DNA from: Candidatus Thiothrix anitrata
Lineage (GTDB): Bacteria; Pseudomonadota; Gammaproteobacteria; Thiotrichales; Thiotrichaceae
Length of the DNA stretch: 64,000 nucleotides
Direction: 5' to 3'
Assembly (NCBI RefSeq): GCF_017901155.1
Contig: NZ_CP072800.1
Coordinates: 771,283 to 835,282, forward strand
Positions 1,282-40,492 of this stretch are shown in pieces. Position numbers and translations under genes: made by a program. Below the pieces are notes generated by a model. It was not told the DNA's origin. It saw nothing but the letters and a program-made list of their open reading frames with translations, and ran no database searches. How positions within the stretch are numbered: the first letter of the stretch is position 1; the number at the start of each line of letters is the position of its first letter.

Positions 1282-2873
<1,592 letters not shown>

Positions 2874-2963
2874 GCAAAGTGTTTTGTGTTTTAGGTTGAA
2901 CACGAGTTAGTATTCAGGTCTAAGATAATACTGAAAACCAACCATGAAATTGCGGGGATTACG

Positions 2964-21235: not shown

Positions 21236-21253
21236 CGCAAACTACAAGATGGG

Positions 21254-21341
21254 TTTTCTTATTGTAGAAAGTTGGCTATTTTCTCCAATAAGAACTTGGC
21301 TACGGTGAGAATCTCCATTATAGTTTTTCTTATTGTAGAAA
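21254..21341. promoter_or_regulatory. Triple operator-like repeat upstream of second Fic gene
   Basis: The 17-mer TTTTCTTATTGTAGAAA occurs exactly at 21254-21270 and 21325-21341. A related inverted copy (TTCTCCAATAAGAA) lies between at 21281-21294. All three fall in the 125-base gap between the Fic genes, with the last copy ending 20 bases before the start codon. This is the look of a multi-site operator. Confidence 0.65.
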
Positions 21342-21360
21342 CTATGCCACTTTCTAAAAT

Positions 21361-22497: not shown

Positions 22498-22522
22498 GCA
22501 CGTGACGTTTGCACATTGATAA

Positions 22523-24022
22523 TTAGCTTAAGGGATGCTTGACGTAATGCTGATTCAAAACATCAACCATACTTGTAGCCCTAATTTGCCTTGCATAGTC
22601 AAGTATATCGCCGCCATCTTTCCAACATATTTTATACTTTCTGGCATTATTGCTTTTTTCTTTTAAAAAACTAATAGCATCCTCGGAAAATCGCCCACTA
22701 GTCCAATACTCGAAAGACATATTAACATCTTTAAATCTGGACTCATCTCTTAAAGCCTCTCGAATGATGGGGACTTTTTTAGACAGCCAGATTTCAACGT
22801 CTTTGACATCAATTAAGGTTGAAGGCTGATATCCTTTACATTCATATATTGCAAGCTCGTGCTCGCCTTTTACCCTTCTTATATCTATTTCTGCACGCTC
22901 CCCATTTCTATTGCGTACCTTTACTCCAATATCTATGCTTGAGCCTTCCCCCTTATAAACGAGATGACCAACAATCAACTCAAATAATGCACCACGTAGA
23001 TTGATGGCAGAACCTTCAATGCGGGAAAGAGAGTTTAACAAGGAATTTACTTTATCAGGGTTTTTTGCGGCTATCGCCGCTGCATTCTCTAACGTAGCAG
23101 TCAGTTGACGAATGTTTTCTGCCATCTCACTCCCAAATAATATTTCAGGGGTTGTAAATATCAATCCGTTTGATTTTCCCAAGCGAAATGCTGCATCTGA
23201 AAATCTATCAGCTATTAACATGCCAATGAATGGCTTCATATTTCTCATTGAACGATTTAATGCACATTTTTTTATAAAGTATTGCACCCCTTCTACATCA
23301 ACTAAAGAACTGATGACATCAATAGCAATAAAACCAGGTATAACCTTATCATTTTTAAACTCTGAGAGAGGCCATATATAAGATGGAGCAGTAATATCCC
23401 AGCCAAACTGCCCAAACTCAGGGATATAATCTTTTGTTTTCTTTTTTATGGCATCATAGCTACCAAGACCAATTTTTCTTGTCCAATCATATGTAGCAGA
23501 AATAATCATATCTTCGATCAAAAGCCTATTACTAAGTGAACTTACCTCAGAGTAATCAAGAAAGCCATTAGCATCAACCATAACACACTCTTCATTATTT
23601 TCATCAATCTCTAGCTTAACAAGCTTACTTGATATCAATCCTCGTAAAATATTATCTGAAGATATATGTTTTTTTAATCTTTGAGGTGATCCACTGATTA
23701 TTTTGAAGAATTTTTTTGGAATTATACCGCCTCTAGCCATTAGGCTCTGCAATGCAATTCCGTAGGCAGAATTTGACTGAGTATGCGAATTTGCTAGTGC
23801 ATTCCAAAACTTATCTGTTCCATACTGCTCACTCAAGTACAAGAAACTTTCCCGTCTGGGTAGTTTGATCGTAGTCAGTTTTTTTACCCTCCCTCCTGAC
23901 CTAGAAATTCTTTGTCTGGCTGCCTCTTCACTGATTCCACTAGAGACAAGCACCTCCTTTATCTTTGAAGACGGAGATGGGCCAAGCTTATTCAGGATAT
24001 GTTCTACCGTAAGTTGGGACAT
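22523..24022 (-). CDS. AT-rich hypothetical, probable nuclease domain
   Basis: A 499-residue protein not recognised as a named family. Residues 1 to about 75 look like a winged helix (LTVEHILNKLG ... EEAARQRISRSGG). The segment around residues 385-415 reads GERAEIDIRRVKGEHELAIYECKG, with the D...E-x-K spacing of PD-(D/E)xK nucleases. Codon use is much more AT-rich than its neighbours, a sign of recent transfer. It lies between a Fic gene and a truncated nucleotidyltransferase gene, in a defence-like setting. The real gene call is good; the nuclease role is inference. Confidence 0.7.
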   Translation of the reverse strand: MSQLTVEHILNKLGPSPSSKIKEVLVSSGISEEAARQRISRSGGRVKKLTTIKLPRRESFLYLSEQYGTDKFWNALANSHTQSNSAYGIALQSLMARGGIIPKKFFKIISGSPQRLKKHISSDNILRGLISSKLVKLEIDENNEECVMVDANGFLDYSEVSSLSNRLLIEDMIISATYDWTRKIGLGSYDAIKKKTKDYIPEFGQFGWDITAPSYIWPLSEFKNDKVIPGFIAIDVISSLVDVEGVQYFIKKCALNRSMRNMKPFIGMLIADRFSDAAFRLGKSNGLIFTTPEILFGSEMAENIRQLTATLENAAAIAAKNPDKVNSLLNSLSRIEGSAINLRGALFELIVGHLVYKGEGSSIDIGVKVRNRNGERAEIDIRRVKGEHELAIYECKGYQPSTLIDVKDVEIWLSKKVPIIREALRDESRFKDVNMSFEYWTSGRFSEDAISFLKEKSNNARKYKICWKDGGDILDYARQIRATSMVDVLNQHYVKHPLS

Positions 24023-24210
24023 ACGCTCTCAAGCCTCTCATATACACTGTCACACTGCGCTATTTATAACAACACTACTTTGCTTCTTCTTGTTTTTTGA
24101 ATAAGAAAATACTCATTTTAAAACAAACAGATAGAAGAAGATTTTTTGATGATACTACGTCTTTTGTCACAGTGCCATTGAAATGTATAGGCTTTCACCA
24201 TGCCAGATTC

Positions 24211-24504
24211 CTAAATCACGCTGTTGGCGAGTGTCATCGCCTTGCGCACATCCCAGCCGCCAATATCCAGCACCGCGTTGACGGGCAGTTCGATCACATC
24301 GCGTTCCGGGTCAAGCTGGATGTACCACTCCGGCGCATGGGCATACACAAAGCGCACGTCGTAATCGCTATCCGGCGAAGGAACCCCCCACGAACGGCTG
24401 CCGCTTTCAATCGCGCTAATAATCGTCACCTGATGCTGGCGAGCCAGTTCCTCCAGCTTGCCCAACACTTCCGTGCGGATGCTGGTATTAATCCGTTCCT
24501 GCAT
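24211..24504 (-). CDS. RlaP-like nucleotidyltransferase, C-terminally truncated
   Basis: A 97-residue remnant of a Pol-beta-type nucleotidyltransferase (PF10127, the RNA-repair linked RlaP group). The active-site segment is GSRSWGVPSPDSDYDVRF, with the G-S and D-x-D metal-binding aspartates. Full-length family members run to about 250 residues. This one stops shortly after GGWDVRKAM, where the family normally continues with a conserved helical half. The stop is followed by AT-rich DNA leading to the 499-residue gene, suggesting that an insertion or deletion cut it. Its ATG follows directly after the stop of the upstream partner. Confidence 0.75.
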   Translation of the reverse strand: MQERINTSIRTEVLGKLEELARQHQVTIISAIESGSRSWGVPSPDSDYDVRFVYAHAPEWYIQLDPERDVIELPVNAVLDIGGWDVRKAMTLANSVI

Positions 24505-25413
24505 TTACATTTTCCCCTGATAACGCTGCAACACCTGCCCAATCTCCTCCAACGCCCGCTCAGCCGCGTGCGGACGGTTCACCACCTCGCTGATCGAGCC
24601 GAAATGCTGTTCCAGACAATCCGTCAGCAACTGGCGGATGGCATCCGTATCCGGCGCATCCGGCAAGCGGCTGGCGAGATACACCCGTTCCAGATCGGCT
24701 TCCTTGCGGGCAAAGTAATCTTCCAGTTGCGGCAGCGTCCATTCACCCCGGCGGATCGCTTTCATCTGCTCGGCATCGCGCTGCAAATCCATATCCTGAT
24801 GCATCAGCAATTGCTCAACCTCACCCAGCAAGCGCACCACGTGGTAGGCAAATTTCACGTCATAACCGAATTGCTCCGTCAGCGCCTTGCGTTTGCCCTC
24901 CGGCTGTTTGGTACGGATTTTGTGCATCTGCCCATAGGCATAGCCCTTGAACTTCGCCCAGCAGCCCTTGTGCAAAAACAATTGCCGCCGCTCGCGCACC
25001 AGCTTACCGATGGGCGAGGCATACAGCACGCAATTTTCCGGCACATACAAGCTGTCGATAATGTTGGGGTTATTGTCAGCCAGCAAGCGGAAATACTTGG
25101 CAATCGCAAACACCGTCACGTCATACACCCGCCCCTTGCCACCGAGTGCCGCCGTATCGCGGATATGGTGCTGCTGGTACTGCTCGAATTGCACCGAATA
25201 GCTATCAAAGCCCGGAATTTCACCGCGCAAATGCGGAAACATCATGGTTTTGGGCGGAATTGCAAAGGCGTAGATGTCCATGTCCGAACTGTCGTTGCTG
25301 ACCCCATACGCCACCGAACCCATGATGACTTCGTACTGCACGGCACTGCTGAGAAAATCCGGCGGGCTGGGCAGAAGCTTTTTTTGCTGGAGTGACTGGA
25401 TGTGACTGCTCAT
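24505..25413 (-). CDS. RlaP-like nucleotidyltransferase, full length
   Basis: A 302-residue Pol-beta superfamily nucleotidyltransferase (PF10127). The active-site segment is GSVAYGVSNDSSDMDIYAF, with the conserved GS and D-x-D. The central segment YDVTVFAIAKYFRLLADNNPNIIDSL is also typical. Such proteins are proposed RNA-end modifying enzymes and often sit beside rtcB-type RNA ligases. Here the partner is the truncated paralogue directly downstream, and the nearest RNA-repair gene is rtcR, 22 kb away. It is divergent from the third Fic gene across a 101-base AT-rich gap that must hold both promoters. Confidence 0.8.
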   Translation of the reverse strand: MSSHIQSLQQKKLLPSPPDFLSSAVQYEVIMGSVAYGVSNDSSDMDIYAFAIPPKTMMFPHLRGEIPGFDSYSVQFEQYQQHHIRDTAALGGKGRVYDVTVFAIAKYFRLLADNNPNIIDSLYVPENCVLYASPIGKLVRERRQLFLHKGCWAKFKGYAYGQMHKIRTKQPEGKRKALTEQFGYDVKFAYHVVRLLGEVEQLLMHQDMDLQRDAEQMKAIRRGEWTLPQLEDYFARKEADLERVYLASRLPDAPDTDAIRQLLTDCLEQHFGSISEVVNRPHAAERALEEIGQVLQRYQGKM

Positions 25414-25514
25414 ACGTACTGGCCGACCTCTTTATCTCAAATTTCATATATTTTGAAACAAATATACAGTTTTAGCTATAATGATTTTAATTGTATGTAT
25501 TTTTGAGATGAAAA

Positions 25515-26894
25515 ATGATCAAACATCCTCCTTTCAAGGATCAAACCCCGACTGCTGCATTCCTCGAGGCGTTTGCTGAAATCAACGAGCGTTGCCCTGG
25601 CAAGCTGATGGAATACATCGCTTTTCAGCGTCCTGTGGATGAGAAAGGGCGTTACCTACATTTCGATGAAATGCGTTATCGGCTAAAACCTGAGCTGAAT
25701 GCCGAGTGGGTATGGGCGGTACTGCGTTTTTCACGCGACAAACAATTAACCCCTTTGGTAGTCTTGGGCGACCCTGCTGTGACCTGCGAATACCTGCAAA
25801 CACCCGCTATCCAGCAAGCACTGTCGATGGTGGATCGGTACACCAGTGCTTCCGCTCTCGATTTGATGAGCAGCAAAATCGGTGAAAAGACACAACTGAA
25901 TCACTACCTCATCAATGACCTAATTGAGGACGAAGCGATCAGCAGCAGCCAGCTCGAAGGGGCAGCGACCACGACGCTGGTAGCCAAAGAGATGCTAAAA
26001 CGTAAACGCAAACCGCGTACCCCGGATGAAAAAATGATTCTGGGCAATTTCATGATGATGCAGTTTGCATGGGAACAACGTCACCAGCCGCTCAGTATTG
26101 AACTCATCACCGACTTACACCGCATTGGGGTTGAGGGCATTGATGATGCCAAATACACACCGGGCCGTTTTCGGCGCACCGATGATGTGGTCGTCGTCGG
26201 CAAAGATAACGAGATCGTGCATCAGCCACCACCCGCCACCGCCTTGAAGGAACGCTTGCGGCACTTCGCTGGCTGGATCAATACGTGCCACGACGATGCA
26301 GAAAGCAACGCCTACATTCATACCCTGATCAAGGCCATTACCCTGCACTTTACCATCGGGTATGAACACCCGTTCCGTGATGGCAATGGGCGGGTGGCTC
26401 GTGGTCTGTTTTACTGGTTTATGTTTAAGCATGATTACACCGCTTTTCGTTACATCGCCATCAGTACCCTATTGAAAAAAGCCCCGCTCCAGTATGGCAA
26501 GTCTTACCTTTATACCGAAACAGATGGCATGGACTTAACCTATTTCATTGATTACCAAAGCAGGATTATTGTGCGGGCGATTCGGGGATTCCTCGATACC
26601 TACCAAAAAATACGGCGTGATATTGAAGCATTTGACCGTTGGTTATGGGATAGCGGACTCTATCGCCAACTGAATGACAAACAGCGGATGCTGTTCAACA
26701 TCGCCAAGGACGATCACGATCAACGTTTTACGGTAAGAGGTGTGGAAAAAAACCTCGGCTGTTCCTACAACACAGCGGCGGCAGCACTCAATGGTCTGGT
26801 AGAGCTGGGATTATTCCGCAAGCAGAAAGAAGGCAGGGAATGGGTGTATGTTTTGCTGGATAAACAGGCTATCCAAAAAAGCTGGAAAAGCTAA
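25515..26894 (+). CDS. Fic family protein, copy 3
   Basis: A 459-residue Fic protein. It has the complete catalytic motif HPFRDGNGRVAR with His285 and the class II inhibitory motif S-x-x-x-E-G (Ser144-Gly149 in SSQLEG). A winged-helix region ends the protein (about 395-455, CSYNTAAAALNGLVELGLF). This sub-family is larger than the other two Fic proteins here. It is followed, after 81 bases, by ygiQ. Confidence 0.9.
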   Translation: MIKHPPFKDQTPTAAFLEAFAEINERCPGKLMEYIAFQRPVDEKGRYLHFDEMRYRLKPELNAEWVWAVLRFSRDKQLTPLVVLGDPAVTCEYLQTPAIQQALSMVDRYTSASALDLMSSKIGEKTQLNHYLINDLIEDEAISSSQLEGAATTTLVAKEMLKRKRKPRTPDEKMILGNFMMMQFAWEQRHQPLSIELITDLHRIGVEGIDDAKYTPGRFRRTDDVVVVGKDNEIVHQPPPATALKERLRHFAGWINTCHDDAESNAYIHTLIKAITLHFTIGYEHPFRDGNGRVARGLFYWFMFKHDYTAFRYIAISTLLKKAPLQYGKSYLYTETDGMDLTYFIDYQSRIIVRAIRGFLDTYQKIRRDIEAFDRWLWDSGLYRQLNDKQRMLFNIAKDDHDQRFTVRGVEKNLGCSYNTAAAALNGLVELGLFRKQKEGREWVYVLLDKQAIQKSWKS

Positions 26895-26975: not shown

Positions 26976-29270
26976 ATGCCACCCAACGCCAATCCCCACG
27001 CCCCTGTCGCCCTGTTCGACCACCCCAAATACTGGGCGGAATGCTACGACACCTCGCCGTATCTCCCCATGAGTCGTGCGGAAATGGACGCGCTAGGCTG
27101 GGATTCCTGCGACATTATTATCGTCACCGGGGATGCTTACGTAGACCACCCTTCGTTCGGCATGGCAGTCATCGGGCGGGTGCTGGAAGCGCAAGGTTTC
27201 CGCGTCGGCATCATTGCGCAACCGGATTGGCATTCCAAAGACCCGTTCATGGCTCTCGGCGCACCCAACCTGTTTTTCGGCGTGGCGGCGGGCAATATGG
27301 ACTCGATGATCAACCGCTACACCGCCGACCGCAAAACGCGCTCCGACGACGTTTACACCCCCGGCGGCATGGCAGGCAAACGCCCCGACCGCGCCACGCT
27401 GGTGTACACGCACCGCTGCCGCGAAGCCTACCCCGACGTGCCGATCATTATCGGCGGAATCGAAGCCTCGTTGCGGCGCATTGCGCATTTCGATTACTGG
27501 CAGGAAAAAGTGCGCACCTCGATCCTGATGGATGCCGCCGCCGACCTATTGCTATACGGCAACGCCGAACGCGCCGTGGTCGAAGTGGCGCACCGCATCG
27601 CTTCCGGCGAACCTGTTTCCAGCATTACCGACGTGCGCGGCACGGCCTTCATCCGCCGCGACACCCCGCCGGGTTGGATGGAAATCGACTCCAGCCGCAT
27701 CGACCAACCGGGCAAAATCGACCGCATTATCAACCCCTACCTCAACACCACCGAGATGAGCGAATGCGAAGTCGAAAAGCGCAATGTGCAATGGTTTGAA
27801 TACGAAGACCCGCGCAGCAAACGCCCCGACGAACACAAGCTGATCTTCCACCCCCGCGCCCGTTTAGACCGCGACACTACCGTGATCCGCCTGCCTTCTT
27901 ACGAAAAAGTCAGCAAAGACAAAGCCTTGTACGCCCACGCCAACCGCGTGCTGCACTTGGAAACCAACCCCGGCAACGCCCGTGCTTTGGTGCAAAAACA
28001 CGGCAACATTGACGTGTGGCTGAACCCGCCACCGATTCCGCTAACCACGCCGGAAATGGATTTCGTGTTCGGGCTGCCCTACGCTCGCTTGCCGCACCCG
28101 TCCTATAACGGCGTAAAAATCCCCGCCTATGACATGATCCGTTTCTCGGTGAATATCATGCGCGGCTGCTTTGGCGGCTGCACCTTCTGTTCGATTACCG
28201 AACACGAAGGGCGCATTATCCAAAGCCGTTCCAAAGAATCCATCATCCGCGAAGTCGAGGAAATCCGCGACAAAGTGCCGGGATTTACCGGGGTAATTTC
28301 CGACCTTGGCGGCCCCACCGCGAATATGTACCGCCTCGCCTGCAAAGACCCGAAGATCGAAGCCGCGTGCCGCAAACCCGCGTGCGTCTACCCCGACGTG
28401 TGCCACAACCTCAACACCGACCACGCCGCTTTGAAGGAATTGTACCGCGAAGCGCGTACCCTGCCCGGTATCAAGAAAATCCTGATCGGTTCAGGGGTGC
28501 GCTATGACCTTGCCATCAAAGACCCCGAATACGTCAAAGAATTGGTGACGCACCACGTCGGCGGCTATTTAAAAATCGCACCGGAACACACCGAATCCGG
28601 CCCCCTGTCCAAGATGATGAAACCGGGCATCGGCGCGTATGACGAATTCAAACGCCTGTTCGAGAAATACACCAAGGAAGCGGGCAAAGAACAATATTTG
28701 ATCCCGTATTTCATCGCCGCGCACCCCGGCACGTCCGACGAAGACATGCTCAACCTTGCACTGTGGCTGAAGAAAAACGGCTTCCGCGCCGACCAAGTGC
28801 AAGCGTTTTACCCCTCGCCGATGGCATCTGCCACCACCATGTACCACACCGACAAAAACCCGCTGCACAAAGTCACCTACAAGAGCGAAAAGGTCGCCAC
28901 CGCCAAATCACCGGAACAACGCAAGCTACACAAAGCGTTTTTGCGCTGGCACGACCCCAAGAACTGGCCGCTGCTGCGCAAAGCGATAGCGGAGATGGGG
29001 CGGCAGGAACTGATTGGCGATGGCGAGAACCAGTTGATCCCGCATTACAAAGCGGGTGAGGAACAGTTGGTGTATGAGGCGCATCGGCGCAAGAATAAGG
29101 GCGGGGAGCATCAGAAGCGGGTGGGGAAGGCGGCCTCTATCCCACCTGCTAACAAGCAGCAGGGTGGCAAGGAAATGCTGACCCAGCATACCGGTTTGCC
29201 ACCGAAACCTCACGCAGGAACAAATAGTAAACAAAAGCCGACAGGAAATCCCAAGCAGTGCAAGAAGTAA
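26976..29270 (+). CDS. ygiQ: YgiQ family radical SAM protein
   Basis: A 764-residue radical SAM protein of the UPF0313/YgiQ family. The iron-sulfur motif C-x3-C-x2-C is intact at Cys398, Cys402 and Cys405 ([10 protein letters not shown]). An N-terminal cobalamin-binding-like region precedes it, and a lysine-rich variable tail follows from about residue 700. The cellular substrate is not established. It is the only complete copy in the window; three 3'-end fragments of the same gene follow over the next 12 kb with other genes between them. Confidence 0.93.
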
Positions 29271-29448
29271 TTTCGTCAAATGATTAATAGATGTTTCCTG
29301 AACAGGGAGGATAAAAATCATATCAGTTATTTTGGCTTCACTGAGGCTGAATCAAGAAATTCAAATTAATGCTTAATATTGAATACAAAACAAGCTGGAC
29401 TTTTTAAAGAAAGACTGGAGTCCATTAAAATTAATAAGCGAGATTGCA

Positions 29449-30687
29449 ATGATTATTCCAAATGTAAGTCGTATTGAAAGAGATATTCATCAACTTAGCA
29501 AATTTCGAGATCCGAAATTTCCAGGAATCACAAGGAGATACGATTCAATACAGTACATTGAGGCTAGAAACTGGATAATAAGAAAATTCAATGAGTATGG
29601 TTTAACCCCTATAGTAGACAAGACAGGAAATTTAATGGTCGAATATGGCAGTCACTCAAATAATAGATTGATTGCTATCGGCTCACATATAGATACTGTC
29701 ATAAGTGGTGGGAAATACGATGGAAGTGTTGGGGTTCTTGGTGGTTTAGAAATACTCCGGTGTCTAATCGAGAATAAGATTGAATTATCTCATAATATAC
29801 TTCTAATTGATTTCTTTGCGGAAGAGTCAACAGAGTTTGGATTATCATTGGTTGGTAGCAGGGGATTGGCTGAAACATTATCTATTGAACAACTTAGCCT
29901 GAAAAACGATGCAGGCAAGAGTTTAAAAGAAGTGATTACAACACATATAAATGAACTAAACACATCGTTTGGTTATATCAATAGACGCAGAATATCTTAT
30001 TTTTTAGAACTCCACATCGAACAAGGTCCTATTTTAGAACACGAGAAAAAGACAGTTGGAGTGGTCTCTGGCATAATCGGGTTGCGTAGATTAGATGTAA
30101 TAATTATTGGCGAAAACAATCACGCAGGGTCAACACCATTAGAATTACGGAAAGATGCACTTTTATCTGCGGCAATTATAATTGTGGAACTTAGAAAAAA
30201 ATGGAAAGAAAAAGCTAAAGACTCAATTCGGATTACAGTTGGTAAATTGAAAATTTCACCAAACTTATCAAATGTAATCCCTGGGCGAGTAGAGTTTTCC
30301 ATTGATCTCCGGGCTGAGTCAAATCAAATTCTAGACTATTGGGTTGATCAAATAGAAAATACAGTTATTGAGTCTTGCGTAGAAAATGACGTGGAATGGA
30401 AGATCATGATTAAATCTCGTATAGAACCTGTTACCTTTAATAAGGACATCTTAGCAGTTATCTTTAAGGCAGCGGAAAAAGCGAAAATGAGTTGCATGAC
30501 TATAAATAGTGGTGCGGCACATGACTCAAGTCAAATGTCATTAATTTCGAAAGCAGGAATGATTTTTATTCCAAGCAAAGATGGCAAGAGCCATTGTGAG
30601 TCAGAGTTCACGTCGATGGATGATATTTCTAAAGGTGTAGAAGTGTTAGGCAATTCTATTCTTCTCCTTGATAGTTTAATCGACTGA
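29449..30687 (+). CDS. M20 family amidohydrolase (N-carbamoyl amino acid / allantoate type)
   Basis: A 412-residue zinc hydrolase of the HyuC/AllC group, which cleaves N-carbamoyl or ureido C-N bonds. Metal ligands are visible in order: GSHIDTV, GKYDGSVGV, AEESTEFG, ELHIEQGP and the final SHCESEF. Codon use is strongly AT-rich compared with ygiQ just upstream, so it is likely imported. It converges on the dioxygenase-TIR-aminotransferase group. Substrate is unknown; deformylation or decarbamoylation of an amino-acid derivative would suit its neighbours but is inference. Confidence 0.85.
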   Translation: MIIPNVSRIERDIHQLSKFRDPKFPGITRRYDSIQYIEARNWIIRKFNEYGLTPIVDKTGNLMVEYGSHSNNRLIAIGSHIDTVISGGKYDGSVGVLGGLEILRCLIENKIELSHNILLIDFFAEESTEFGLSLVGSRGLAETLSIEQLSLKNDAGKSLKEVITTHINELNTSFGYINRRRISYFLELHIEQGPILEHEKKTVGVVSGIIGLRRLDVIIIGENNHAGSTPLELRKDALLSAAIIIVELRKKWKEKAKDSIRITVGKLKISPNLSNVIPGRVEFSIDLRAESNQILDYWVDQIENTVIESCVENDVEWKIMIKSRIEPVTFNKDILAVIFKAAEKAKMSCMTINSGAAHDSSQMSLISKAGMIFIPSKDGKSHCESEFTSMDDISKGVEVLGNSILLLDSLID

Positions 30688-30871
30688 ATGTAGCGTATGC
30701 CACATACGAATAATCATCTAATTTTTCCGGGGCTGTTGCCAACCCCGAATTATATTTCCGATGTCTCCAATCTTTAATGATGTTTTATTTTTTAGTAAGT
30801 CAAAACAATAGAGTTTCCTTTCTAGCTGGGAAATATATCAGCAGGTTATTCGAGGTTTTTAGGCTGATTAT

Positions 30872-32035
30872 CTAAGTGTTTGCATCAGCTTCCGTTTCGT
30901 TAACTAAATTACCAAGCCAAATTAAGAAATCTGTACCGCCAGTTCCCTTGTCTGTAAGCTTTCTCCCATTTTCCACAAGAAAATAATTGACAATATCTAA
31001 ATGCACCCTCCTAAGTTCAGCAACAGCAAGTAATGCATTGCGCCGAGCTTTTTTAATGTATATATTATTAATAAAGCCTAGCAATTGCTGACCAGTCTTA
31101 GATGTACGCTCAAAAAATTCTTGATGACTTGGAGGTGCACATAATACAAAGTGCTTGAAAGATGATATTACATGATCTGAATGTCTAGTTCCAAGAGCTA
31201 TATCTACAGCTCGCATCATGCCAGATTGCGCCCCCGTTTCTCCGACATATGTCACTTCCGGATTGCCTGAAACTCCATTAAATCTAATTCGGTCATGCCC
31301 AAACAATAATGGACGAATAGATTCGCGGAACACTGTAGGATCTATATTTCCAGCAACTTCTGCAAATATACTCTTGGCAAATAAAACACCAGCTTCGATT
31401 GATTCGAGAGCCGAAGTAAGTACTTCTATATTATTACTTTGTAATGCTAATTCCATTCTTTTAATTGCTGCTACAACTTCTGCACCAACAGTCTCAGCTG
31501 ATAAATGTACTGCGATAAACCACTCTTCATCAGATGTACCTGTTAAAGTTTGAGCAACTTTTATATCACTTGGTTTACTACGAACAGAAATTTTATTTGA
31601 AAAATTTGCTAATACATAAGATGCGTAAGTAAGGGATGGAGGTCTTCCAACATATTTAGAAAAATCCCAAATTGGTTTTGCAATCGCCTCTGGAAGTTCT
31701 TTTTTCTGTGCAAAATACGGGCGGTGAATAAGGTGCGCTGCAACAATTACATAGGCTCTGAGAATACCCTCACAGACTTCTGGAGTGGTGTCAGCAGGGG
31801 CAACTTCAGGCTCACCTTTTAATGACGAAATAATGTATTCTAAATCTGTATCCGTCATTACACCAAGCTCAGTGGATAACTGCCCTAGAATTCTAGAGCT
31901 ACCATATGGTAGCTGACTTAGCGCTAAGGGTGTAGATGGAGTAATTTTTGGTAAAAATCCAGTCACATCATCTGGCATCCAAAATGCTGATATACTATCC
32001 ACTTTATTTGTTTCCTTATGCTCTACTAGATACAC
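30872..32035 (-). CDS. Indoleamine 2,3-dioxygenase-like heme enzyme
   Basis: A 387-residue member of the IDO-like heme dioxygenase superfamily. Family landmarks are in order: LTYASYVLANF, the arginine in ESIRPLLFG, the segment GETGAQSG followed by VDIALGTRH, the segment APPSHQEFFE, the likely heme-ligand His345 in LRRVHLDIVNYF, and the C-terminal GTGGTDF loop. The position of Ser167 in human IDO1 appears to be a histidine here (FIAVHLSAE), as in tryptophan 2,3-dioxygenase. The start is a GTG; an ATG 19 codons in is an alternative. It lies 27 bases after the TIR gene in the same operon. Substrate is probably an indole or tryptophan derivative. Confidence 0.8.
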   Translation of the reverse strand: MYLVEHKETNKVDSISAFWMPDDVTGFLPKITPSTPLALSQLPYGSSRILGQLSTELGVMTDTDLEYIISSLKGEPEVAPADTTPEVCEGILRAYVIVAAHLIHRPYFAQKKELPEAIAKPIWDFSKYVGRPPSLTYASYVLANFSNKISVRSKPSDIKVAQTLTGTSDEEWFIAVHLSAETVGAEVVAAIKRMELALQSNNIEVLTSALESIEAGVLFAKSIFAEVAGNIDPTVFRESIRPLLFGHDRIRFNGVSGNPEVTYVGETGAQSGMMRAVDIALGTRHSDHVISSFKHFVLCAPPSHQEFFERTSKTGQQLLGFINNIYIKKARRNALLAVAELRRVHLDIVNYFLVENGRKLTDKGTGGTDFLIWLGNLVNETEADANT

Positions 32036-32062
32036 TATTTTAGAGAATAATAAGCAATAGAC

Positions 32063-33253
32063 TTATTGTTCTGCAAGGACTTGTTTGATTGATTTACCAA
32101 GTTTTATACTCAGTTCCCAAAGCATTTCAAAATTATTCGTTAATGTCTTAATATAGTCAGTATTGGTTGTTTGGTACTGAGTCCACGAGCCTTTTGTGAA
32201 TATATTCACATGCTCTTCATCCAAGTAAGTAAAAAATGCTTCATATGAAATCTCTGCTCCGTCTCTATAAATAAAGACACAATATTCCCTGAAGTATTTT
32301 TTATGAGTATTTCTTAGCTCGCTACGCTGAATTATCCTCCAGTTATTATTTTGGTATTTCTGAAGAAATTTAATAAAAACTTTCATTCGAGGCACGGAAA
32401 TATTGTCTTGAATTACTATTCTCCTGACCTCGTGTGAAAGGTTTTTCTCTTCATCAAACCAATCGCTTTTATTGTTTGTTATGAAAAAGTCAATACTAAG
32501 ATCTGTAAGCGGCAATACGTAGATAGATTCTATACAGTATTTTTGTTTTCTTGCAGCAGATGCTAATTTAAAAAAATTAAAATGTGGTATGCTTGAAGTT
32601 GAAGAGTCCTGGCGAATTAAATTAATTGTTTTTGCGGCATCATCAAAAAAAATATTTTTACTCATGCGATCACATAAGAGAATTTCCCCTATGCAAAATT
32701 TTTGCCTCTTAATTTTTTCTTCAAGTCTGGCTTGAGCGATTTTAAGCAGCTCTTTATATTGTTTTCTTCTTTCAGTACTTTTAGTTAAGTTAATTTTTGA
32801 ATCATCAATTAATTTATCTTTACCAATGTGACCACTTTTTCCTATATATTGCTGAATATGAGAAAGTATTGTGTCTATATGATCAACTTCATATCCATAG
32901 CATTGCTTGTATTGTAATAATTTACTCTTTGGGCAAATATCTGGAGATATAGCTATCGGTATTAAGAATTTTGATTCATCATCTGCTAATGTTAATGCAG
33001 CGCCTAATTCACCAGTGCAAAACTCGCTGTCAAAGTAATCTCCAGTAAGCACCAAAACAAAAAAAGTTGCTTCTCGAATATGTTTGAAAACAGTTTCACT
33101 CCAGTTTAAGCCTGATTGAAAACCATACCTGATTTGGGAAGTAAATAAAATTTGTTCTTCCCTAATTCCAACTTCAGATTCTATAATGTCGACAATTAAT
33201 TGGGTAAGCTCTTTATCTTTCTCGGCATGGCTTATAAAAAAACTCTTTGTCAT
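32063..33253 (-). CDS. TIR-domain protein
   Basis: A 396-residue protein with an N-terminal TIR domain (about 1-135), beginning SFFISHAEKDKEL. The segment FCTGELGAA contains the likely catalytic Glu82, as in NAD-cleaving TIR proteins. The remaining 260 residues are not recognised; they are mixed alpha-beta and lysine-rich with no clear membrane segment. TIR proteins with extra domains are common in anti-phage systems (Thoeris, CBASS, short Argonaute systems). Here it lies between an aminotransferase and a tryptophan-dioxygenase-like gene, on the same strand. Strongly AT-rich. Confidence 0.85.
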   Translation of the reverse strand: MTKSFFISHAEKDKELTQLIVDIIESEVGIREEQILFTSQIRYGFQSGLNWSETVFKHIREATFFVLVLTGDYFDSEFCTGELGAALTLADDESKFLIPIAISPDICPKSKLLQYKQCYGYEVDHIDTILSHIQQYIGKSGHIGKDKLIDDSKINLTKSTERRKQYKELLKIAQARLEEKIKRQKFCIGEILLCDRMSKNIFFDDAAKTINLIRQDSSTSSIPHFNFFKLASAARKQKYCIESIYVLPLTDLSIDFFITNNKSDWFDEEKNLSHEVRRIVIQDNISVPRMKVFIKFLQKYQNNNWRIIQRSELRNTHKKYFREYCVFIYRDGAEISYEAFFTYLDEEHVNIFTKGSWTQYQTTNTDYIKTLTNNFEMLWELSIKLGKSIKQVLAEQ

Positions 33254-33320
33254 TTAAAACCTCAAAACTGCTATGATTTAAATATTATTCAATAAATAAA
33301 CGCCTGAATGTTTCACGACA

Positions 33321-34502
33321 TCATAGACCACAGCGTTGATAGAATTTATCTATTCTATCAAAGGCTTTGTGAATGACTGATATATCACTAGCGAAGGACA
33401 TTCTCAAATGGCCCATTCCAGAAGGCCCCATACTTGAGCCGCCTACAGTGATAACTCCAGTTTCTTTAATCAATAGTTTTGCAAAATCCATATCTGGCAT
33501 TTCAAATCCTAAAAATTTAGGGAATACATAAAATGCACCTTGAGGTGTGTGATAAGTGAATAGGTTTGGTAAATTGTCTAAACGTGTACAAATGGCATTA
33601 CGGCTCTCAGATATTTTTTTAATCATTTCAGCCATTGCTTCTTTGCCTCGCGGGTCGGAAATAGCTGCTGTTACAGCTACCATAGATGGAGTTGGAGGGC
33701 AAATGCTAAAATAGGTATGGATATTGAAAATCCGTTCTGCGAGTTCAGATGGGGCATATGCGTATCCAATACGCCAGCCAGTCATTGCATATTCTTTAGA
33801 AAAGCTTCTGCAAAGAATAGTATGTTTTCTAAGTTCCGGGATAAATAATGGGCTAAAAATTTCTTTACCATATGTCAAAACAAAATAAGCCTCATCTAAT
33901 ATGAGAATTAAATTGTTAGAAATGACTGTTTCGGCAATTGCACGTACATCGGCCTCAGATAAGACAGTGCCTGTGGGATTGTTTGGGTTTGTTAGAATAA
34001 TCGCTCTGGTTTTTTTTGTAATAGCTTTTTTTAAAGAATCGATATTAAAAGACCATCCATCATTTTCTTTAAGCGAAACAAATATTGGCGTGGCTTCTGC
34101 GAGATGAATCTGGGATAGGTGAAGGGGGTAGCTCGGATCGAAGAAGATAATTTCATCGCCTTTTTCAATTAAGGCCATGAGACTGGAGAATAATGCACCG
34201 ATACCACCTAGAGTCAATATCAACTCTTTTGAGTTTGGATAAAATCCATAGTCATCGTCAATCTGCTTTTTAATAAGCTCGATTAGGTTTTTTTCTATTT
34301 CAGGTATCGCATCCGAGTACATTCCAATTTTTCCATCAACCTTGCTGCGCTCTAAAAGAGCTTCGTAGATAAAATAAGGGGTTGGAAAAAGCGGAGTACC
34401 TTGCCCTAATGAAATAGTATCACTGAACTGTGCAGCATAACGCATTATAGATTTTACGCCTGCGTTCGGAAGATTATCAGATCGAGATGAGAAGATATAC
34501 AT
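33321..34502 (-). CDS. Class I/II PLP-dependent aminotransferase
   Basis: A fold-type I aminotransferase of about 393 residues. It has the PLP motifs: NPNNPTGTVLS, DEAYF, and the lysine in SFSKEYAMTGWRIGY. The frame is open to an ATG at 34565, but family members begin near FSSRSDNLPNAG, so the ATG at 34502 is preferred. Related enzymes act on aspartate, aromatic amino acids or kynurenine. It leads the minus-strand group aminotransferase-TIR-dioxygenase. Specificity cannot be read from sequence alone. Confidence 0.85.
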   Translation of the reverse strand: MYIFSSRSDNLPNAGVKSIMRYAAQFSDTISLGQGTPLFPTPYFIYEALLERSKVDGKIGMYSDAIPEIEKNLIELIKKQIDDDYGFYPNSKELILTLGGIGALFSSLMALIEKGDEIIFFDPSYPLHLSQIHLAEATPIFVSLKENDGWSFNIDSLKKAITKKTRAIILTNPNNPTGTVLSEADVRAIAETVISNNLILILDEAYFVLTYGKEIFSPLFIPELRKHTILCRSFSKEYAMTGWRIGYAYAPSELAERIFNIHTYFSICPPTPSMVAVTAAISDPRGKEAMAEMIKKISESRNAICTRLDNLPNLFTYHTPQGAFYVFPKFLGFEMPDMDFAKLLIKETGVITVGGSSMGPSGMGHLRMSFASDISVIHKAFDRIDKFYQRCGL

Positions 34503-34734
34503 TTCTGTTACAACTGAATTTTGAGAAAATAACAGCGAGAAACTTGCTGCACAAAATGCAAACATGGTTTGTGATTACACATTATCTCCACTCCATCTTT
34601 CAATATAGCTACACTCGCATTTGGACTCTAATAACAGTACATGCACCGATTACTCTGATGGTAGCCTAACACTATTGAGTGTGTCCATGTAATTTCTATA
34701 GATTCCTAGAGCATCTCTATGAAAACCATGAGTG

Positions 34735-35927
34735 GCTGCACTTTCTATTCCATCACCGAACACGAAGGGCGCATCATCCAGAACCGTTCGCAGGAATCCA
34801 TCCTCCGCGAAGTCGAAGAAATCCGCGACAAAGTGTCGGGGTTCACCGGAGTCATTTCCGACCTCGGCGGCCCCACCGCGAATATGTACCGCCTCGCCTG
34901 CAAAGACCCGAAGATTGAAGCCGCGTGCCGCAAACCCGCGTGCGTCTACCCCGACGTGTGCCACAACCTCAACACCGACCACGCCGCCCTGAAGGAATTG
35001 TACCGCGAAGCGCGTACCTTGCCCGGCATCAAGAAAATCCTGATCGGTTCAGGCGTGCGCTATGACCTTGCCATCAAAGACCCCGAATACGTCAAAGAAT
35101 TGGTGACGCACCACGTCGGTGGCTATTTAAAAATCGCACCGGAACACACCGAGTCCGCGCCCCTTTCCAAAATGATGAAACCGGGCATTGGCGCGTATGA
35201 CGAATTCAAACGCCTGTTCGAGAAATACACCAAGGAAGCAGGCAAAGAACAATATTTGATCCCGTATTTCATCGCCGCGCACCCCGGCACGTCTGACGAA
35301 GACATGCTCAACCTCGCGCTGTGGCTGAAGAAACACGGCTTCCGCGCCGACCAAGTGCAAGCGTTTTACCCCTCACCGATGGCATCCGCCACCACCATGT
35401 ACCACACCGACAAAAATCCGCTGCACAAAGTCACCTACAAAAGCGAAAAGGTCGCCACCGCGAAATCACCGGAACAGCGCAAGCTGCACAAAGCGTTTTT
35501 GCGCTGGCACGACCCGAAGAACTGGCCGCTGCTGCGCAAAGCGATGGCGGAGATGGGGCGGCAGGAACTGATTGGCGATGGCGAGAACCAGTTGATCCCG
35601 CATTACAAGGCGGGTGAAGAACAGTTGGTGTATGAGGCGCATCGAAGGAAGAATAAGGGCGGGGAGCATCAGAAGCGGGTGGGGAAGCCTGCGCAAGCGG
35701 CAGTGGGGAAACCGAATTATGGTAAACCTGTGCAAAGTGCAGCGGCTGGTAAACCCAATACTGGCAAACCCGCGCAAACAACAACGAGTAAATCGAATGC
35801 GGGTAAGCCGCAGGGTGGGAAGATGTTGACGCAGCATACGGGTTTGCCTCCGAAACCCAAGGCTGATGTAGGGGGCAAGGGCAAACCTGCCCCCAAACAC
35901 AAGCCATCCAACAAACGGCGGGGTTAA
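34735..35927 (+). pseudogene. ygiQ 3' fragment, copy 2
   Basis: About 1.2 kb closely matching ygiQ from codon 402 to the end. Homology begins at the radical-SAM cysteine motif. The first cysteine is missing and the third is tyrosine (GCTFYSIT), so the fragment cannot bind the iron-sulfur cluster. The frame stays open to a stop, with an ATG at 34719 just before the homology. Its tail (GKP-rich repeats) differs from that of the full copy, so it is a separate allele and not a recent simple duplicate. Confidence 0.88.
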
Positions 35928-36016
35928 TCCAGCGTTCTTTCTGGGCATACCCCCCTTACGGAAAACGCGGTATAATTCATCTTCAATCTTGCTGAAAAAT
36001 ACTAGGAAATAAACCA

Positions 36017-36355
36017 ATGAAAGCATCTCTTTTTTCGCTGGCGGTGATTCTTGCTTCCAGTTTGGTGGTTACTGCTTGCGATGAGACCAAGGCCGACGAG
36101 TCCACCGTTAAACCCGCGTTACAAACAGAGACAAAGGAAGTGGTAGACTTGCAAAGTACTGACGTAAAAGCAAGCGACTTAGCGGAGGCGACCACAACCG
36201 TTTCGTCTACAGGGACTTCTTTAGAACCAAGTAAATTAGTTGCTGACGGTACGCCAGAATCTGGTTCTACTGATAATGAGTGGGATACTGGAGAAAGTCT
36301 TGCAGACATAGGGCTTCGTGCGAGGCTTGCTGATGGAATGATAATAGCAAAATAA
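36017..36355 (+). CDS. Small hypothetical lipoprotein
   Basis: A 112-residue protein with a signal peptide and lipobox (SSLVVTAC; lipidated Cys near residue 21). The mature part is acidic and threonine/serine-rich with no recognised domain. A TATAAT -10 element lies 41 bases upstream at 35971-35976, without a clear -35. It follows the second ygiQ fragment and is probably monocistronic. Confidence 0.6.
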   Translation: MKASLFSLAVILASSLVVTACDETKADESTVKPALQTETKEVVDLQSTDVKASDLAEATTTVSSTGTSLEPSKLVADGTPESGSTDNEWDTGESLADIGLRARLADGMIIAK

Positions 36356-36397
36356 ATCAAAGAAGGAAGAATCGATTGATTTTTACCCTTTATCCAC

Positions 36398-36691
36398 TCA
36401 AATTGCATACTGGATATTAAACGCCGATGCCTTCACCACCGGACGCACAGAACGGTTCTGTTTGCACAGTTCCACAATACCGTAGCGTTCCATCGTCTTC
36501 AAGGTACGGCTGAGGTTGCTGGTTTGCCGCCCGCTCAGAGTCGCTAAGTCTTTCAAGGTTTCCGGCTGGTTTTCCTCAATCATTTTCAGCAGGCGCATAT
36601 TGTTGTCGCTCAACACTTCACTCAGGGATTTCATGGAACTGAACCAAATTTGGGGTTCGCCCGGTTGTGGTGTGTAACGTCCCTCATTCAA
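36398..36691 (-). CDS. TumA-like HTH antitoxin, 5'-truncated copy A
   Basis: A MarR/ArsR-like winged-helix protein (HVO_A0114/TumA type): LSEVLSDNNMRLLKMIEEN then LATLSGRQTSNLSRTLKTMERYGIV. It is nearly identical to the copy at 40136-40492, but about 100 bases holding its first 20-odd codons and its normal start are deleted. The only remaining start is a TTG (36691) fused to the end of the upstream toxin remnant. The DNA-binding part is intact; whether it is translated is uncertain. Confidence 0.65.
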   Translation of the reverse strand: MNEGRYTPQPGEPQIWFSSMKSLSEVLSDNNMRLLKMIEENQPETLKDLATLSGRQTSNLSRTLKTMERYGIVELCKQNRSVRPVVKASAFNIQYAI

Positions 36692-36795
36692 AATCTGGTT
36701 AAGTACGCCTCAATTTTGTACCAATAACCGTTTTCTTCCGTGTATTCCGTGCCATTCAATTCCAGCAGGATACTGAGTCCATCATCGTATGCCAT
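36688..36795 (-). pseudogene. TumE-like toxin remnant, copy A
   Basis: A 35-codon ORF starting MAYDDGLSILLELNG and containing ENGYWYKIEAYLTRF before a stop. This matches the N-terminal third of TumE/DUF6516 toxins, which normally continue for about 70 more residues. It lies directly upstream of the antitoxin-like gene, in the usual toxin-then-antitoxin order. The same truncation is present in copy B, so the toxin was already broken before the pair was duplicated. Confidence 0.6.
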
Positions 36796-36928
36796 ACCAT
36801 CATCTTTATTATCAGCAGATGATAGTCATCATAATAGGAATATACGCTTGCTTCAAATTCGACAACACCTGTCATCTTGTTTTAAAGTTCTCGCTATCAG
36901 CTTCTTAACCGTAGGATGACCCCATGCC

Positions 36929-37333
36929 ATGACCACATTGCAAGTCAATTCAGCTATTGAACTGGATCAGGTGTTACGCGGTGTTGAAATGCTCGACACG
37001 CCAGAGCTGGAACGCTTCTTTTCGCAAGTCGGTATCCTGTTGGCACGCCGCAAAGCACCCAGTATCCCGCAACGGGAAGCGGTATTGCTGCAACAAATCA
37101 ATACGCCGTTGCCCGCGCAAACGCTGGCAGACTATCAGGATCTCAGCCAAAAATTGCGCGATGAGAATATTACGCCAGCCGAACATGCTCACTTACTAAC
37201 CTTGGTGGATGTTGTCGAACTGGCAGATGCCGAACGGATGCAGCATTTATTTGAGCTTGCCCAACTGCGCAACGTACCACTGGATACACTGATGCAACAG
37301 TTAGGGATTCAGACACCAGCACCTTATGTCTAA
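36929..37333 (+). CDS. Small hypothetical protein upstream of HNH nuclease
   Basis: A 134-residue, mostly helical, leucine-rich protein with no recognised domain; there is no signal peptide or membrane segment. Its end overlaps the start of the HNH nuclease gene by eight bases, so the two are co-translated and probably work together. Similar small-protein plus HNH pairs are familiar from other bacteria, but the role is not known. Confidence 0.6.
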   Translation: MTTLQVNSAIELDQVLRGVEMLDTPELERFFSQVGILLARRKAPSIPQREAVLLQQINTPLPAQTLADYQDLSQKLRDENITPAEHAHLLTLVDVVELADAERMQHLFELAQLRNVPLDTLMQQLGIQTPAPYV

Positions 37334-37748
37334 ACGCCATCTTTCCAGCGCGGAACAAAGCGCGATTATTGAGCGTGCGGGTGGACGTTGCGAGTATTGC
37401 CAAAGCCAGATGGAATATTCGGGGCAATCGTTCGAGTTTGATCATATCGCCCCTATCAGCCGTGCGGGCGAAACATCGCTTGAAAATCTAGCCTTAGCCT
37501 GCGGTGGATGCAATCGCCACAAATCCAATAAAGTGCAAGGCATTGATCCTGCGACAGGTGATAGGGTTGAGCTGTTTAATCCGCGCCAGCAACAATGGGA
37601 AGTCCATTTTGGTTGGACGGATGATTACACTCAAATGATTGGTTTGACAGCAATCGGGCGAGCAACCGTAGCAGCGTTAAAACTCAATCGTATGGGCTTG
37701 GTGAATATGCGGCGTGTGCTCTGTATGGCGGGCAAGCATCCAGCGTAG
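37326..37748 (+). CDS. HNH endonuclease
   Basis: A 140-residue nuclease with a complete HNH fold: CEYC zinc ligands, the [11 protein letters not shown] segment with the catalytic His, the [10 protein letters not shown] segment and the second zinc pair. It overlaps the preceding small gene by eight bases. The third ygiQ fragment begins about 16 bases after its stop. Confidence 0.82.
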
Positions 37749-37763
37749 GCAACAAGGATAAAG

Positions 37764-38380
37764 GGGGTAAGGAACAATACCTGATTCCGTATTTCATCGC
37801 CGCGCACCCCGGCACGTCCGACGAAGACATGCTCAACCTTGCGCTGTGGCTCAAGAAAAACGGCTTCCGCGCCGACCAAGTGCAAGCGTTTTACCCCTCA
37901 CCGATGGCATCCGCCACCACCATGTACCACACCGACATGGTTGCTGAGCGTAGCCGAAGTAAAAACCCGCTGCACAAAGTCACCTACAAGAGCGAAAAAG
38001 TCGCCACCGCAAAATCACCGGAACAGCGCAAGCTGCACAAAGCGTTTTTGCGCTGGCACGACCCGAAAAACTGGCCGCTGCTGCGTAAAGCGATAGCTGA
38101 CATGGGGCGGCAGGAACTGATTGGCGATGGCGAAAACCAGTTGATCCCGCATTACAAAGCGGGTGAGGAACAGTTGGTGTATGAGGCGCATCGGCGCAAG
38201 AATAAAGGTTGGGAGCATCAGAAGCGGGTGGGGAAGCCTGCGCAAGTGGCAGCGAAACCGAATGCGGGTAAGCCGCAGGGTGGGAAGGTGTTGACGCAGC
38301 ATACGGGGTTGCCACCGAAGGCGCGGGCGGATGTAGGTGGTAAACCGAGACCGACCAACAAATCCAAGCGAGGACGGTAA
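37764..38380 (+). pseudogene. ygiQ 3' fragment, copy 3
   Basis: About 0.6 kb matching ygiQ from around codon 570 to the end ([22 protein letters not shown] onwards). The 5' part is absent and no plausible start fits the family. It carries a 24-base in-frame insertion at 37937-37960 and its own variant tail. Confidence 0.85.
37937..37960. repeat. 24-base in-frame repeat insertion in ygiQ fragment
   Basis: Compared with the other ygiQ copies, 24 bases containing CTGAGCGTAGCCGAAG are inserted, adding exactly eight codons (MVAERSRS). The core resembles short dispersed repeats seen in many bacterial genomes. Confidence 0.6.
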
Positions 38381-38439: not shown

Positions 38440-39117
38440 ATGAAAGTAGACGAATACCTCCAATTGCTGAACGATCGCAAGAAAATCAGTGACGTAAAAG
38501 AAAAAATCATTCGGCGATTGTGGGGTAACGAATCTGACAGTTTCCCGAAACCTTGGGTATCTTCTGCCGAATTACTGGAACTGACAGGTCAGAAATACTT
38601 TGACCGACGCACCAGAGAACTCCGCGACCAATTGGGCTGCAACATTGAAACGATTTACCTTGACGCATTTTCTGGTCACGCATGGCGCATCCATTCTCCA
38701 GAACTGGCAGACGCACAAGACCGTGAATACTTGACCCAAAGCCAGAAAAACAAGCTATTTCAAGACAATGGTTTCACCTGCGTTACCTGTGGCGTGTATC
38801 TCCAACCCGGTGTCAGAGGCTTGCAAGCCGACCACAAAGTACCTCTCTCGCGTGGTGGCGGCAATGAACTCCACAATTGGCAACCCATGTGCAACAACTG
38901 TAATGTTGGTAAACGCCGAGCATGTGAGGGTTGTTCACTGGATTGCCAAACCTGTTCTTGGGCTTTCCCTGAAAAACATGGAGTACGAGCCATGTTCGCA
39001 ATCAGTGAACAAACCCTGAGAAGAGTGACCGGATACGCCAACCGGATGGGCAAAAGCCGCGACCAAATCATGGAGTCGGCGGCTAATGAATATCTAGATA
39101 AGCGTGAAAAAGATTAA
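38440..39117 (+). CDS. HNH restriction endonuclease, probable type II
   Basis: A 225-residue protein. The C-terminal half has an HNH core (CVTCGVYL, LQADHKVPLSRGG, NWQPMCNNCN) followed by further cysteines (CEGCSLDCQTC). The N-terminal part may read the DNA site (SSAELLELTG, DRRTRELRDQLG). It is tail-to-tail with a cytosine methyltransferase gene, the two stop codons overlapping, which supports a restriction-modification pair. The recognition site cannot be read from sequence. Confidence 0.82.
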   Translation: MKVDEYLQLLNDRKKISDVKEKIIRRLWGNESDSFPKPWVSSAELLELTGQKYFDRRTRELRDQLGCNIETIYLDAFSGHAWRIHSPELADAQDREYLTQSQKNKLFQDNGFTCVTCGVYLQPGVRGLQADHKVPLSRGGGNELHNWQPMCNNCNVGKRRACEGCSLDCQTCSWAFPEKHGVRAMFAISEQTLRRVTGYANRMGKSRDQIMESAANEYLDKREKD

Positions 39118-40124
39118 GCGGCTAAACGGCTGCTATTCGCTATATCAAGCGCATAAATAATTTGTCTGCCTACCGCTTCAGCTACGGGTGGTGGCAAAGC
39201 ATTACCTACTTGTCTATAAGCTGGCGTTTTCTTGCCGTAAAACTCCCACCAATCAGGGAAACCTTGAATTCTAGCAGCCATCCTCACCGTCAATAACGGC
39301 ATGTATTCGTAGCCAATCTTATTTTTGTAGCCAACGAAACCCTTTTCCGGTGGATGCTCACCAACCAGATTACCGTTTACGTGCAAAGCCTGCCATGCGC
39401 GTCTGGCACGGGTTGGTCCAAGATCAGGCCCACCGTGTTTTTTAGAGCCACCAACTAAGGTAGGGGCAATCTTGTTAGCTTTTTGTTTCCACTCTGCTGC
39501 ATATTCCCAGCCTTGGGATGCCATTAAATCATATAAGGCTTCACCAACTGTTGGGGGAGTAATCTTGTAGACAGGCCATGCAAAGTAGCTTGCATATTCT
39601 GCCTTTAATGCCACCAAAATAACGCGTGGGCGCAATTGCGGAACACCAAAATCACAAGCATTGAGCAATTTCCAGAAAACCTTGTAACCCATGCACCCCA
39701 ATCGGGATTCAATTTCAGCACGGTAAGCATCAAATTTTGCATCCAACAGACCAGCCACGTTTTCCAACATGACTGCTTTGGGCTGAGTGTTGTTCACAAT
39801 GTCTAATGCAGCAGGAAATAAATCCCGCTCATCCTGCTTGCCAAGTTGCTTACCTGCTGTTGAGAATGGTGGGCAGGGAACGCCGCCCGCAACAAGATCA
39901 ATGCCTTTGTATTGATTAGAGGAATATTTAGAAAACTCTTCTATGCAACCCTCAACGATTTGACCCCAGCCCAAGTCATGTAACGCATTGTTATGTCTGA
40001 GTGTCTGACACGCTGGCTTGTCTATATCCATCAATAGCTGGTGCTGAAAACCTGCTAAGTGTAAACCAAGTGCCTGTCCGCCTGCTCCGGCACACAGTTC
40101 GATAGAGGTATACTGACTTTTCAT
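39114..40124 (-). CDS. DNA cytosine-5 methyltransferase
   Basis: A C5-cytosine methyltransferase of about 336 residues. Motifs are in order: I (SIELCAGAGGQALGL), IV with catalytic cysteine (GGVPCPPFSTAG), VI (MLENVAGL), VIII (QLRPRVILVAL) and IX-X (ARIQGFPDWW, YRQVGNALPP). The open frame extends to a TTG at 40139 that would overlap the antitoxin-like stop. The ATG at 40124 gives the normal N-terminus. It protects the host DNA from the neighbouring HNH nuclease and may be co-transcribed with the upstream HTH gene. Confidence 0.9.
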   Translation of the reverse strand: MKSQYTSIELCAGAGGQALGLHLAGFQHQLLMDIDKPACQTLRHNNALHDLGWGQIVEGCIEEFSKYSSNQYKGIDLVAGGVPCPPFSTAGKQLGKQDERDLFPAALDIVNNTQPKAVMLENVAGLLDAKFDAYRAEIESRLGCMGYKVFWKLLNACDFGVPQLRPRVILVALKAEYASYFAWPVYKITPPTVGEALYDLMASQGWEYAAEWKQKANKIAPTLVGGSKKHGGPDLGPTRARRAWQALHVNGNLVGEHPPEKGFVGYKNKIGYEYMPLLTVRMAARIQGFPDWWEFYGKKTPAYRQVGNALPPPVAEAVGRQIIYALDIANSSRLAA

Positions 40125-40135
40125 CGTTCTAGAAC

Positions 40136-40492
40136 TCAAATCGCATACTGGATATTAAACGCCGTAGCCTTCACCACCGGACGCACGGAACGGTTCTGTT
40201 TGCACAGTTCCACAATGCCGTAGCGTTCCATCGTCTTCAAGGTACGGCTGAGGTTGCTGGTTTGCCGCCCGCTCAGCGTCGCCAAGTCTTTCAAGGTTTC
40301 CGGCTGATTTTCCTCAATCATTTTCAGCAGGCGCATGTTGTTATCGCTCAACACTTCACTCAGGGATTTCATGGAACTGAACCAAATTTTGGGTTCGCCC
40401 GGTTGTGGTGCGTAACGTCCGGCAGCAATCGCCAGTACCCGTTGCTGGAACTGTTCGCGGGGCATGATGCCAACATTCAAAACGGTATTCAT
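40136..40492 (-). CDS. TumA-like HTH antitoxin, full-length copy B
   Basis: A 118-residue winged-helix protein of the HVO_A0114/TumA type, with the helix-turn-helix LKDLATLSGRQTSNLSRTLK. It starts with ATG and a GAGGTGA-like site. It is the intact counterpart of the truncated copy at 36398-36691. Its usual toxin partner upstream is reduced to a broken remnant. The methyltransferase follows within about 12 bases, so it may now act as a controller of the restriction-modification genes; that is inference. Confidence 0.75.
   Translation of the reverse strand: MNTVLNVGIMPREQFQQRVLAIAAGRYAPQPGEPKIWFSSMKSLSEVLSDNNMRLLKMIEENQPETLKDLATLSGRQTSNLSRTLKTMERYGIVELCKQNRSVRPVVKATAFNIQYAI

Follow-up and report, generated by a model that had tools for sequence, protein, structure and literature searches.

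Within a 64,000-nucleotide stretch of the Candidatus Thiothrix anitrata genome (contig NZ_CP072800.1, positions 771,283 to 835,282; hereafter the window), a gene for a TIR-domain protein lies beside a gene for a divergent heme dioxygenase of the IDO family. Our analysis suggests that the two form an immune or suicide switch of a new kind in bacteria, one that a heme enzyme would run. As a gene unit, in which the TIR part can be replaced by a transmembrane (TM) part, the pair is well supported, since homologues of the two partners stand together in a second phylum; how it works is weakly supported. A first-pass annotation of the window had placed both genes in an AT-rich block of four, together with an aminotransferase and an M20 amidohydrolase, and had proposed that the three enzymes could convert tryptophan and that this small-molecule pathway may be joined to a TIR effector.

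The key evidence comes from a search for relatives of the IDO in bacterial and archaeal genomes, in which at least 555 stretches were confirmed and 80 loci kept. One of these (L016), on a contig of a metagenome-assembled genome (MAG) from Terriglobia (Acidobacteriota), a phylum other than that of the window, encodes an IDO (2707-3870) that is 44-45% identical to the window IDO over its full length (45% over residues 17-387, E 6e-100); all other relatives among the matches listed share at most 31% identity with it. Directly upstream, on the same strand and separated by 1 bp, lies a gene (1737-2705) for a 322-residue protein. Over its last ~190 residues this protein aligns with the C-terminal part of the TIR protein in the window (33% identity over 189 aa, E 1e-31), with FTYLD-EH-N-FTKGSW-QY and similar runs in common. 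The N-terminus of this protein has no TIR domain and carries two strongly hydrophobic helices (residues 37-55 and 74-92). Gene order is the same at both loci, the gene for effector and C-terminal domain being followed by the IDO gene; in the window, the two are co-oriented with a gap of 27 bp.

Relatives of the aminotransferase and the amidohydrolase were looked for in the Terriglobia locus and none was found. Hence, the conserved unit consists of a TIR or two-TM part joined to the C-terminal domain, plus the IDO, and the other two enzymes are probably passengers of the island, with the aminotransferase possibly an accessory to the pair. This bears on the pathway proposed at first, in which IDO, amidohydrolase and aminotransferase would supply a kynurenic-acid-like product to the TIR protein. 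The four genes, their positions and the AT-rich character of the block were all borne out by the open reading frames, the family matches and the low G+C content (32-39%, against 56-58% in the flanking ygiQ sequences), and the aminotransferase gene is co-oriented with the TIR gene, 67 bp upstream of it. However, besides the absence of both enzymes from the Terriglobia locus, the M20 gene is oppositely oriented and convergent with the IDO gene, and its product, by its TIGR01879 score (322 bits; cut-off 204), is of the N-carbamoyl-amino-acid/allantoate (carbamoylase) type and not a kynurenine formamidase. The IDO pocket, moreover, is changed (see below), and the neighbouring ygiQ-bounded blocks hold unrelated cargo. 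We thus regard a four-gene pathway as improbable and largely set aside the kynurenine or kynurenic-acid route. What survives of the initial proposal is the link between a small-molecule enzyme and a TIR effector, since the same IDO accompanies the C-terminal domain in another phylum with the effector swapped, whereas the set of four genes was seen nowhere else among the matches listed. The aminotransferase itself has the SFSK and NPNNPTG motifs and is nearest to archaeal aspartate/aromatic aminotransferases, with kynurenine transaminases ranking lower. SAR86 loci with an aminotransferase beside an IDO gene were considered as a lead and set aside, being by eye PatB-like with 22-24% identity only.

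The Terriglobia locus has also weakened a simpler explanation, namely ordinary accessory metabolism with chance neighbours, in which the TIR protein has nothing to do with IDO function. The small number of instances speaks for it, as do other IDOs with metabolic neighbours, such as the haloarchaeal ones beside kynU. Yet the same two genes, both homologous, stand in the same order and nearly abut in two phyla, and we give this explanation little credence.

The label of tryptophan dioxygenase was right as a family assignment (PF01231; Table 1). The window IDO aligns with human IDO1 (E 1e-14) and keeps the proximal heme ligand (His345, human H346), the counterpart of human R231 (Arg241) and likewise the GTGGT motif and loop. 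Phe226, Phe227 and Arg231 are important to how human IDO binds its substrate and to its activity (PMC6072487). At the Phe227 position, where 85 of 89 other IDOs bear an aromatic residue, the window IDO has Arg and the Terriglobia one Val, and the NW motif has become NF in both. In a tree of 92 rows, with these 89 bacterial and archaeal IDOs as the comparison set, the two are grouped in one clade (SH-aLRT 100), whose stem measures 3.9 changes per column. Judged from this alignment, they are a deeply diverged type that probably still binds heme and an amino-acid carboxylate, and their substrate pocket is, at the aligned positions, altered in part. The heme His, the Arg231 equivalent and GTGGT are thus shared with canonical bacterial, archaeal and animal IDOs, from which the clade differs by its long branch, the non-aromatic residue, the NF motif and its pairing with a TIR or TM effector instead of kynurenine genes. 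In haloarchaea, IDO genes (L007, L017, L031, L066) are found near the kynureninase gene (kynU), the setting expected of a true kynurenine-pathway IDO.

Among solved structures in the PDB, the closest TIR by sequence is that of SpbK (E 7e-12), in a match restricted to the TIR part (query 2-99 to chain 137-233); the Thoeris ThsB model reached E 5e-4 only. The catalytic Glu reported by the first-pass annotation is indeed present as the putative E82, which aligns with SpbK E192, a residue mutated in the SpbK study. The C-terminal domain had no significant match in Pfam, PADLOC, PHROGs or PDB sequences, and its best Pfam match up to E 10 was CIDE-N at chance level (E 0.19). As far as such comparisons tell, it is a domain new to the libraries searched, paired with a deeply diverged IDO and an exchangeable effector. 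A resemblance to inactive phospholipase-D-like sensor domains, by a Phe-x-x-Leu-Trp ending, is conceivable.

An exchange of TIR for TM parts next to a small-molecule enzyme is also how Pycsar is laid out, where PycTIR or PycTM stands with PycC (PMC11224242). As in Pycsar, two genes place a small-molecule enzyme beside a putative receptor to which a TIR (window) or TM effector (the two hydrophobic helices of the Terriglobia protein) is fused. However, the four block proteins include no nucleotide cyclase (PycC), the partner being a PF01231 heme protein, no cyclic-nucleotide-binding domain was matched in the C-terminal domain by Pfam up to E 10 (CIDE-N being the one match), and the TIR is N-terminal here and C-terminal in PycTIR. 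CBASS with TIR-SAVED or 2-TM effectors similarly has an exchangeable TIR or TM effector fused to a ligand domain, here putative, beside a synthase-like enzyme, but no CD-NTase was found in the block or among the Terriglobia proteins scanned around the pair, and neither a SAVED nor a STING domain was detected. Thoeris likewise combines several genes, among them one for a TIR protein, with a small-molecule signal; there the ThsB TIR makes the signal, whereas here the IDO would be the likely signal enzyme, and the block has no ThsA-type protein. SpbK, the Bacillus subtilis TIR antiphage NADase, has the closest TIR and an aligned catalytic Glu, by which the window protein is a predicted NADase. 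It is, however, encoded by one gene and switched on by the portal protein of a phage, while a C-terminal partner domain and an IDO are found here; its N-terminal portal-binding domain was not matched in the window protein, in which the TIR is N-terminal.

Because their defining parts were looked for and are absent, the unit is no member of Pycsar, CBASS or Thoeris, and it may, by analogy, work like them. No antiphage system that combines an IDO or dioxygenase with TIR was found in the open-access literature, subscription papers and preprints lying mostly outside this search. We consider the unit novel since each known system that resembles it failed a defining feature, and this claim would fall if it proves not to be an immune system.

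In the layout of Pycsar and CBASS the effector part switches and the rest is kept, and the C-terminal domain would hence be the receptor for which the IDO would supply or set the signal. The reading that we favour, at somewhat less than an even chance, is that of a two-gene module of abortive-infection type in which a TIR or membrane effector has the IDO as its partner, one that makes the signal or sets the state. Infection or stress would alter the state of the IDO, or its product (an oxidised amino-acid or indole derivative), and the C-terminal domain would read this change. Clustering of the TIR domains and NAD depletion would follow; in the Terriglobia relative, permeabilisation of the membrane would take their place, with growth arrest as the outcome. 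We infer that the effector is activated by the IDO product, with the C-terminal domain as the receptor of that product, that the TIR domain cleaves NAD and that phage is the trigger, the last from the TIR type and the neighbourhood only. A more specific version, in which the IDO-family enzyme would make a non-nucleotide, amino-acid-derived messenger and a new receptor domain would switch on TIR or membrane-pore effectors, is plausible but doubtful.

The main alternative, which the sequence data fit equally, turns the role of the IDO around. It would be a regulatory, antitoxin-like brake, a heme protein bound to the C-terminal domain that keeps the TIR or membrane effector inactive until it is released by a change in heme state, by O2, NO or an indole ligand, or by binding of a phage protein. 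Given the Arg or Val in place of Phe227, turnover may be reduced or altered, and the tight one-to-one pairing of the genes suits a protein complex; retention of the heme His, the Arg231 equivalent and GTGGT, on the other hand, points to maintained catalysis, and we consider such a brake unlikely, if well worth weighing. The IDO could also be an effector itself, so that tryptophan depletion and NAD depletion by the TIR together would cause a double starvation. In mammals, IDO-driven tryptophan depletion restricts pathogens, but this idea leaves both the conserved C-terminal domain with its exchangeable effectors and the changed pocket unexplained, and is very improbable.

Several observations count against an IDO that signals to an immune effector. 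Only two instances of the pair are present among the matches listed, one of them in a MAG contig, and the genes next to the Terriglobia pair (a weak patatin match and an SDR) are no clear defence genes. AlphaFold2 predictions of the C-terminal domain from a two-row alignment had pLDDT values of 37 and 41, and a Foldseek fold search with it returned no significant match. An IDO normally makes N-formylkynurenine, which is not known to be an immune signal. Furthermore, a link to phage or prophage was looked for in phages and viral contigs and none was found.

The distribution of the unit is narrow. A single copy of the C-terminal domain is present in the genome of the window and none was found in 62 other genomes of the family, and the IDO gene is absent from all 15 same-genus genomes sampled; the TIR-IDO pair is therefore accessory. 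Apart from the window's own genome, none of 369 genomes of the class has the domain. Among 297 genomes of the phylum and 40 of the order of the Terriglobia relative, that relative alone matched, three further phyla gave none in 234, 238 and 229 genomes, and no further copy appeared in ~1,470 sampled genomes from several groups. The unit is thus rare or patchily sampled, its rarity being an impression and not a count, and further copies may exist beyond the matches listed. The block as a whole had no match in plasmids, where only TIR-domain and remote IDO matches were seen. Neither the TIR protein nor the IDO matched in phages, the 322-residue Terriglobia protein matched in neither plasmids nor phages, and viral contigs matched neither the window proteins nor the Terriglobia protein. 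Carriage of the block by a phage or plasmid was rejected for lack of such matches.

To our knowledge, the systems described so far (CBASS, Pycsar, Thoeris and type III CRISPR) use immune second messengers derived from nucleotides. If the proposed role of the IDO is true, redox and heme chemistry or amino-acid-derived signals would enter bacterial immunity through an IDO-type enzyme, and bacteria would offer a counterpart to the role that IDO has in the immunity of animals. The module is directly testable, as it has two genes only, each with an active site that can be mutated.

Table 1. Features of the block and its bounds (window positions unless residues are given).
Feature	Position	Strand	Family match or detail
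ygiQ, full gene (radical SAM), left bound of block	26976-29270	+	PF08497, PF11842, PF04055
M20 amidohydrolase, hydantoinase/carbamoylase type	29449-30687	+	PF01546 E 6e-24; TIGR01879 E 5e-96
IDO-family heme dioxygenase, divergent, GTG start	30872-32035	-	PF01231 E 1e-39
TIR protein, TIR and C-terminal domain	32063-33253	-	TIR_2, PF13676, E 7e-13
TIR domain	residues ~1-125 of TIR protein		putative catalytic E82
Putative C-terminal partner/sensor domain	residues ~197-380 of TIR protein		
Aminotransferase class I/II	33321-34565	-	PF00155 E 6e-59
ygiQ 3' fragment, truncated, right bound of block	34719-35927	+	direct repeats, 92-96% identical to 28176-29145
Third ygiQ 3' fragment, further right	37829-38380		

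The block had been described as lying between two ygiQ copies. It is bounded by ygiQ on both sides, but by one full gene and one truncated 3' fragment, and a third fragment follows. The 3' end of ygiQ thus occurs three times in 26976-38380, with different cargo after each copy and with 92-96% identity between the repeats over most of their length. The surroundings of the TIR-IDO block look like an insertion hot spot, apparently one of repeated insertion through partial duplication of ygiQ.

The suggested linkage to defence genes was found, the neighbourhood of the pair being rich in genes of that type (an HNH enzyme with a C5 methyltransferase, a further HNH gene and three Fic genes). To the right of the third ygiQ fragment, an HNH-type restriction enzyme (REase_II model, E 1e-17) faces a C5 DNA methyltransferase (38440-40139). 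Between the second and third fragments, a small 134-aa gene overlaps an HNH nuclease gene (140 aa, PtuB-like, E 2e-15; 36929-37748). Upstream of the block, three Fic-domain genes (20030, 21361 and 25515, within 20030-26894) surround a 499-aa gene (22523-24022, minus strand) for which Pfam and PADLOC gave no match. Two related small winged-helix proteins of the HVO_A0114 family (36398-36691 and 40136-40492) flank the HNH and restriction-modification blocks. A 1228-aa open frame in the same genome, ~20 kb to the right of the window, contains a second TIR-like domain (locus L002, G000:C1:855316-855603).

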